Assembly (NCBI GenBank): GCA_946184165.1
Contig: CAMHEN010000009.1
Location: forward strand, 1-33,650
Length of the DNA: 33,650 bases
Source of the DNA: an uncultured Clostridia bacterium
Lineage (GTDB): Bacteria; Bacillota; Clostridia; Oscillospirales; Oscillospiraceae
Reading direction: 5' to 3'
Part shown: positions 12,125 through 20,123 of the stretch, piece by piece
Position numbering within the stretch: the stretch's first letter is position 1
Layout of the letters: every line of letters starts with the position of its first letter
Position numbers and translations under genes: made by a program
Notes under the pieces: generated by a model
What the model saw: the letters and a program-made list of their open reading frames with translations, nothing else
Database searches by the model: none
What the model was told of the DNA's origin: nothing

Positions 12125-12913
12125 ATGTCAAAACCGGAATTTGGATTGATCCTCTCCGGAATGCCGGATATATGGTGCCTTCATTTGTACGGATGCAGGG
12201 ACATCACCATCAGCGGGATCTTCGTCGATGCGGAGTATTCCCCAAAAGGCGGGCTGCGCGCCTATACCGACAACGATGACGGGATCGTGCTTGATTCCTG
12301 TGAAAACCCAGTAATTCAAGATTCCGTGATCCGCTGCCATGACGACTGCATTTCTGTCAAGTCCGGCAAAGGGGAATACGCCCGGCTTCATCCGCGTCTT
12401 TCCCGGAACATTCAGATCCACGGCTGTACCTTCCACCTGGGCAGCGGCATCGCCATCGGCAGCGAGATGTCCGGCGGGATTGAGGATGTTGAGATCCGGG
12501 GCTGCCGCTTTCTGGACACGTTCAGCCTGTTCTGCCTGAAAACCGCGCGCTCCAGAGGCGGGTATATTCGCAGGATCAGGCTCCGGGACTGTACGCTTGA
12601 GAGCCGGGACCCGGGGATCTTTTCCAATCGGAAGCACAAGGGTGTCGTTTATATGGACGCATCCTACAAGGAGAGCAACCCCGTCAATGTGGAAGATATC
12701 CCGATCCCGGAGGTTGCGGATATCCATATCTCTGACGTAAGCATCCATACGCTCGCCGAAAGAATGCTATATATCCACGGCCTGTACGAGAGACCGTTTC
12801 AAAATATCCTGCTTGAACGCATTTCCTCCAACTGCGCGGCGCCTGACGATATCGTGGATGCCGAAATCAGTGGAGATTATGCCCTTATACTAGAACCTCA
12901 TAAAAACCTTTAA
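12125..12913 (+). pseudogene. Glycoside hydrolase family 28 (polygalacturonase-like) remnant
   Basis: LHLYGCRDITISGI, TDNDDGIVLDSCENPVIQDSVIRCHDDCISVKSG, GSGIAIGSEMSGG, FCLKTARSRGG parallel GH28 motifs, but the N-terminus is missing, the usual GHGG is GSGI and RIKT is CLKT; no RBS; stop lies inside the downstream repeat. Confidence 0.65.
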
Positions 12914-13191
12914 TTTCTTAAAGGTTTTTATAGCACCGTAAGGTGCGTAGAGGTTCTGTATGAGACGCATTTTCAGCGCCTTTGCGCTGAAAATGCCGCG
13001 GGAACCGCGGCTTATCTGATTAAACACCCATGCGTCGCAATCCGCTCCACAACGCATGAAAGCTCATAACGCATGGGTGTTTTTCGCATCTGTTTCGGTT
13101 GCCGCGTGAGCGGCGAGAAACAGGCGCTTGGATCAATCTTTACTGTGGAAGCGGAGCTTTCACAGTAAATCTTTTAATCAGATAATAGTAT
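12887..13191 (+). repeat. Structured multi-hairpin repeat, copy A (305 bp, ends ATACTA...TAGTAT)
   Basis: First ~137 nt aligns with reverse complement of 19935-20093; stems ATAAAAACCTTTAA/TTAAAGGTTTTTAT, GCACC/GGTGC, GCATTTTCAGCGC/GCGCTGAAAATGC, GCCGCGG/CCGCGGC, TTATCTGATTAA/TTAATCAGATAA, plus a hairpin cassette absent from copy B. Confidence 0.85.
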
Positions 13192-13291
13192 TAGATACTG
13201 TTCACCGATATAAATGCTTCCTTGTATCGGTGAGGCATCGTGCTGAAGCACGCTGCCATTTTTGTGCCAAAAGGCATAAACGATAAAGAGT

Positions 13292-13331
13292 ACTCCCTGG
13301 CTCAGACGAATTGAGCCGGGGAGTCCGTTTT
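13292..13331. terminator. Hairpin terminator
   Basis: ACTCCCTGGCTCA-(7 nt)-TGAGCCGGGGAGT then CCGTTTTT. Confidence 0.7.
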
Positions 13332-19777: not shown

Positions 19778-19948
19778 ATGGAAACCAAGTATTACATTGT
19801 CAGCCGCATCGACGGAGACTATGCCTGGCTCACCTGCACCAGCGCGCAGGAGGAACCCTTCTTCATTGCCCGCGCGCTGCTGCCTATGGATATCGACGAG
19901 GGCAGCAGAGTGAAAATGGAGAACTTCCAGTTTGATACTATTTCTTGA
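19778..19948 (+). CDS. Small DUF3006-like protein (56 aa)
   Basis: AAGGAG RBS; METKYYIVSRIDGDYAWLTCTSAQEEPFFIARALLPMDIDEGSRVKMENFQFDTIS resembles the IDRxEGDYA...IPRSLLP...EGD pattern of DUF3006; shorter than the ORF-track cutoff; stop codon lies inside the downstream repeat. Confidence 0.65.
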   Translation: METKYYIVSRIDGDYAWLTCTSAQEEPFFIARALLPMDIDEGSRVKMENFQFDTIS

Positions 19949-20093
19949 TTGAATTCTTTAATCAAGAAAGCCGCAGTTCCTGCGGCGTTTTCAGCGCAAA
20001 ACGCTGAAAACGCGTCTCATGCAGAACCTCTACGCGCCTTGTGGCGCTATGAAAACCTTTAAGGGATTAAAGGTTTTCATGAGGTTTTAGTAT
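19935..20093 (-). repeat. Structured multi-hairpin repeat, copy B (159 bp, inverted relative to copy A)
   Basis: Reverse complement ATACTAAAACCTCATGAAAACCTTTAATCCCTTAAAGGTTTTCATAGCGCCACAAGGCGCGTAGAGGTTCTGCATGAGACGC... aligns to 12887 onward with compensatory differences. Confidence 0.85.
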
Positions 20094-20123
20094 GAGATGG
20101 CCTGATCCCGTACGAAAAGACTT

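Follow-up and report, generated by a model that had tools for sequence, protein, structure and literature searches.

BOX elements of Streptococcus pneumoniae and S. suis are small, high-copy, non-coding repeats of modular and strongly folded build, which have terminal inverted repeats (TIRs) and target-site duplications (TSDs), cluster and nest with other repeats and have been proposed to be parasitic (PMC3049150). RUP elements and other MITEs derived from insertion sequences (ISs) are non-autonomous, with short TIRs and a short, specific target duplication, and are presumably mobilized in trans; the TIRs of RUP resemble those of IS630-Spn1 (PMC3049150; for BOX/RUP-type MITEs see also the review PMC10969869). 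The REP/BIME repeats and their RAYT (Y1) partners provide another point of comparison, being mosaics of hairpin repeats that often lie between convergent genes. Insertion sequences of the IS5 family, in turn, provide examples of a 3-bp TNA target duplication.

The window analysed here, 33,650 nucleotides of a contig from an uncultured bacterium of the Oscillospiraceae, contains copies of an element of about 150-160 nt, without an ORF of its own and present in dozens of copies, that recalls each of these systems. It shares with BOX all of the traits named above, but has other helices and another linker, shows stem covariation across genome-specific subfamilies and resides in Oscillospiraceae-type bacteria and relatives of Pyramidobacter. 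In contrast to RUP, it duplicates TNA, and a search of four Pfam families did not find a parent IS. The TNA duplication is common to the element and the IS5 family, but an IS5-type transposase with TACT..AGTA ends was not found in the genomes searched. Unlike REP/BIME, it has a target duplication and a multi-helix architecture, and it lacks a consistent Y1 partner in the 11 genomes searched. The preliminary description of the window had recognized no named family, and indeed Rfam returned only sub-threshold chance matches, searches of phages and plasmids retrieved none, the BOX-PCR primer sequence was absent from 335 loci and literature searches yielded no description of the element. Hence, notwithstanding a general style close to that of pneumococcal BOX, it is extremely unlikely to be an already described bacterial repeat such as BOX, RUP, REP/BIME or ERIC; it is a previously unnamed family, MITE-like in the manner of BOX and RUP and a member of neither. 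It places a fold with RNA-grade covariation inside an apparently parasitic mobile element of gut and rumen bacteria.

Copies in the window and architecture of the element

The two copies first noticed in the window, one on each strand, stand at the coordinates originally given for them (Table 1). The 305-nt copy A is a real element, but a composite one, consisting of the element and a nested second repeat. Removal of a 145-nt insert (13025-13169) restores a canonical 160-nt element, and this insert-less form matches the commonest copy of the genome, being identical to it over the stretches compared (the first 134 nt and the last 24 nt). Copy A adjoins a third, decayed copy, within a few bases of whose end it has been inserted. 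On its other side a 262-aa ORF (12125-12913), which on reading looks like a pectate-lyase/GH28-type protein, enters copy A and has its stop codon there; as the ORF ends inside the element, the insertion has changed or truncated its C-terminus.

Table 1. Features of the element and its copies in the window
Feature	Coordinates	Strand	Remarks
Copy A, nested insert included	12887-13191	+	Element proper 12888-13190
Copy A, left target-site duplication TTA (TNA)	12885-12887	+	TNA on both sides of copy A
Copy A, right target-site duplication TTA	13191-13193	+	
Three-way junction	12892-12957	+	P1 arms 12892-12899 and 12950-12957; P2 12900-12931; P3 12933-12946
Conserved linker GTATGAGACG (family GYATGAGACG)	12958-12967	+	Spacer between P1 and P4; invariant columns in seed alignment A1
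Hairpins P4 and P5	12967-13009	+	P4 12967-12996; P5 12997-13009
Terminal hairpin P6	13012-13185	+	Arms 13012-13024 and 13173-13185; nested module in loop
Module B, 141-nt core	13025-13165	+	Flanked by TAAA at 13021-13024 and at 13166-13169
Third, decayed copy (3' half: P4', P5, P6, CAGTAT end)	13195-13331	-	44.1 bits, E 3e-9
Copy B, complete 159-nt element of a second subfamily	19935-20093	-	
Copy B, duplicated TCA on either side	20093-20095 and 19933-19935		

From 5' to 3', the element comprises ATACT, an 8-bp stem P1 around the hairpins P2 and P3, the linker, P4, P5, the terminal P6 and AGTAT (seed alignment A1 and covariance model R1). The arms of P3 have the family consensus GCRCC/GGYGC, and the linker is retained even by most of the diverged matches to the covariance model. 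The TIRs, TACTA..TAGTA, are exact over only about 5 nt. The folding energy lies far below that of shuffled sequences, with z-scores of -11.1 (copy A) and -10.8 (copy B).

The fold is conserved while nearly all stem letters have changed

Alignment and folding of copies A and B recovered all four covarying pairs named in the preliminary description, and the folded terminal stem adds three more. The two copies show 25 differences, which affect 10 base pairs; in seven of these 10 both sides have changed and still pair, whereas 20,000 trials with the differences placed at random averaged 0.5 two-sided pairs and never exceeded 4. Across 100 distinct copies, 92.6% of the alignment cells are paired and a two-sided change is seen in 47 of the 52 pairs. 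The covariation score of these 100 distinct rows is 0.495, compared with 0.148 for shuffled and at most 0.083 for slid alignments, slides of one to three columns bringing the pairing down to 40-51%. For 61 thinned sequences the score is 0.63, whereas none of 200 simulations along the inferred tree exceeded 0.15; the significance of this contrast is somewhat overstated because the simulated ancestors were unpaired and the alignment had been fitted to the structure.

The stem P1 covaries in all eight of its pairs, its arms spanning two other hairpins (about 45 nt). When these arms were cut out by anchors alone, with the pairing unused, 80% of positions paired versus 53% after shuffling, false registers included. 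Moreover, the P1 stems differ wholly between genome-specific subfamilies, yet each of them pairs: AGAACCTC/GAGGTTCT in genome G000, AGACTTCG/CGAAGTCT in G263, AGTCTCAA/TTGAGACT in G264, AGAATCTG/CAGATTCT in G266 and AGTTTTCG/CGAAAACT in G267. The fold has thus been conserved while nearly all of its stem letters have changed, and the earlier proposal of selection on the folded nucleic acid, or of copying via a folded intermediate, is supported by overwhelming covariation.

Could the paired changes instead stem from the mechanics of DNA, with hairpin extrusion or template switching copying one arm from the other and thereby correcting imperfect palindromes? P2, P4, P5 and P6 are local hairpins and would be the best substrates for such arm correction, and some close copies in which both partners of a pair have undergone a transversion (T-A to G-C in the subfamily of G264) are in line with it. 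P1, however, pairs across two other hairpins and still covaries throughout, and the linker and the overall architecture are conserved as well. Among sibling copies, changes are in most subfamilies fewer at stem than at unpaired positions, but one-sided, pair-breaking changes outnumber paired ones; the abundance of such breaks indicates that palindrome correction is inefficient. We hold this explanation to be unlikely for the covariation as a whole, some of which it may nevertheless underlie. One-sided breaks in individual copies are, on the other hand, expected where selection acts on the lineages that spread and not on each locus.

Host range, target sites and mode of spread

In the genome to which the window belongs (a 2.26-Mb MAG with a completeness of 67%), about 66 matches were counted, some partial and some full, and many are 98-100% identical; like the copy counts that follow, this figure was obtained by searching and is a lower bound. 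Several of the matches lie at contig ends, and the element, common at the ends of MAG contigs, probably breaks assemblies. A covariance model, the step that the preliminary description had proposed, detected more than 100 further copies, 105 matches being counted with model R1 among the loci examined. Matches were present in 13 of 60 relatives sampled, all 13 of the same genus, and with R1 in 34 of 201 genomes and 21 of 106 genera of the same GTDB family; under stricter filters R1 retrieved none from 291 sampled genomes of other Clostridia. A degenerate DNA pattern found at least 102 stretches, those listed lying mostly in Oscillospiraceae/Clostridia MAGs from the gut of goats, deer and cattle. 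A MAG titled Pyramidobacter (Synergistota), whose phylum rests on the title of the record, has 28 matches and a homogeneous subfamily of its own; related copies are present in four of the 40 genomes nearest to it, with 17, 13, 4 and 3 matches (loci and genomes L078, L148; G584, G586-G588). Several copies of this group share the 5' skeleton and the position of the linker. A number of matches are weak and very divergent (about 40 bits or less, in some cases on both strands); these may represent other hairpin-rich repeats that have the same ends. A single copy is present on one contig of a viral collection, IMGVR_UViG_3300010163_001249 (L179:5389-5548), where it sits between capsid-region genes; with capsid and tail-type genes next to feoB, all named by reading, the contig looks like a prophage, and a prophage-borne copy is a possible route of spread between hosts.

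The ends ATACTA..TAGTAT are preceded by T-N and followed by N-A, the two N being identical in 71 of 82 copies (35% would be expected by chance for N). Empty sites, a check likewise suggested at the outset, were found in sister species: the filled site CAGATTTGA-TACTA..TAGTA-TGAACGG of genome G007 corresponds to an empty CAGATTTGAACGG with a single TGA in the sister species G273, and an insertion in G032 to an empty site with a single TCA in G290. Comparison of filled and empty sites thus defines a TNA target duplication, and the empty sites with their 3-bp duplication settle what had at first been left open, namely that this is a mobile element. Of 74 duplicated targets, 61 are TYA (N being T or C) and 13 TRA, so that insertion is directional, and since some loci are common to several species, insertions can be old. 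Copies have also been inserted next to or inside other mobile sequences, including the 5' region of an IS1182-like gene and the prophage contig.

Copy number and near-identity within one genome, together with the TNA duplication, the empty sites, the insertions at other mobile sequences and the covariation across genome-specific subfamilies, lead us to regard the element as probably non-autonomous MITE-like mobile DNA that is served by a transposase in trans and whose fold aids its spread; its copies do not seem to serve the host at their individual sites. A putative transposase supplied in trans would recognize the TACTA...TAGTA ends and insert the element at TNA, presumably through a 3-bp staggered cut, with the observed duplication as the outcome. 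Its single strand adopts the fold shown by the covariation, with the P1-P2-P3 three-way junction, the TGYATGAGACG linker, P4, P5 and the terminal P6. This fold would be kept in lineages that still produce copies, settled copies decaying, and it may present the ends to the enzyme or shield host transcripts from harm. Most likely, then, the fold persists because folding makes copies spread more readily or renders them less harmful, and the genome-specific subfamilies amount to a natural experiment on why MITEs fold, for transposition or for tolerance in transcripts. A counterpoint is that ordinary double-strand transposition needs no such elaborate fold. It is conceivable, though rather unlikely, that an enzyme transposing the element into TNA recognizes the folded single strand itself, be it DNA or RNA, as substrate or guide, three-way junction and TGYATGAGACG linker included. 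Were this true, the element would represent a new class of mobile elements, in which selection for mobility keeps an RNA-like fold in two phyla even as the letters of its stems are replaced.

The search for a mobilizing transposase covered four Pfam families in incomplete MAGs, which lose IS copies. Within this scope, none of the PF01609 transposases of the genus (41 genomes) had TNA-TACT..AGTA-TNA ends, and PF01609 (sought in 11 high-copy genomes), PF13586, PF01797 and PF13359 were missing from many, in some cases all, of the high-copy hosts examined, none being present in all hosts. In two species (loci L146 and L155) a copy directly precedes the start codon of an IS1182-like transposase and seems to move together with this IS; the gene was rejected as a partner, the element simply occupying its 5' region. 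A 1.4-kb candidate in L210 was likewise discarded when its ORFs, on reading, proved to contain no transposase. The TNA duplication gives only a lead, which may point to an IS5-type or related DDE transposase. Mobilization as a folded strand, in the manner of HUH/Y1 elements of the IS200/IS605 or REP/RAYT type, would suit the multi-hairpin ends and the orientation preference of the target, but a duplicated target is unexpected for IS200/IS605-type insertion, and the Y1 transposase PF01797 occurs in just 5 of 11 genomes and not in G000, which makes a single-strand element of this kind very improbable.

The sites of insertion bear on a further alternative. Of 74 duplicated TNAs, 25 are the stop codon of a long open frame, compared with 12% of other TAA/TGA triplets nearby; against an intergenic null, however, the figures are 13 versus 8.5 expected (p ~0.015), and targeting of stop codons, suggestive yet weak against this proper null, is not claimed. 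A rough ORF caller placed 16 of 30 classified sites between convergent genes and one between divergent genes. Such positions, taken with an RNA-like three-way junction that covaries, might speak for a structured RNA or cis-regulator from which the host benefits (e.g. a stabilizer of 3' UTRs or a terminator), spread by transposition and kept for its effect on neighbouring genes. Yet the stop-codon excess is weak, Rfam has no relative, and the patchy presence within the family, the genome-specific subfamilies and the decayed copies fit a parasite. We consider such a host role quite improbable, although a regulatory effect may exist at some loci.

Nested modules and neighbouring repeats

The element also carries further nested mobile modules. 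Module B, the insert of copy A, folds into three hairpins, occurs in P6 loops in either orientation and always between two copies of TTTA, and is also free-standing at three places elsewhere in the genome (C77, C81 and C29); it is a separate mobile repeat nested in the element. In diverged copies of it (L032, L039) the stems likewise have paired changes, as judged by eye. In three genomes a third module, about 51 nt long and made up of a hairpin and a 3' tail, has been inserted precisely at ATGA^GACG in the linker. A related form of it lies inside P6, and the paired arms differ between the forms (L035, L064, L075, L053, L170). Further short hairpin repeats, such as GCGAGTCCTC..., GTCGACATTGTCTGC... 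and GTGCGATGATCATTATA, occur near elements at several loci (L018, L019, L034, L025, L040, L046), suggesting a genome rich in palindromic repeats.
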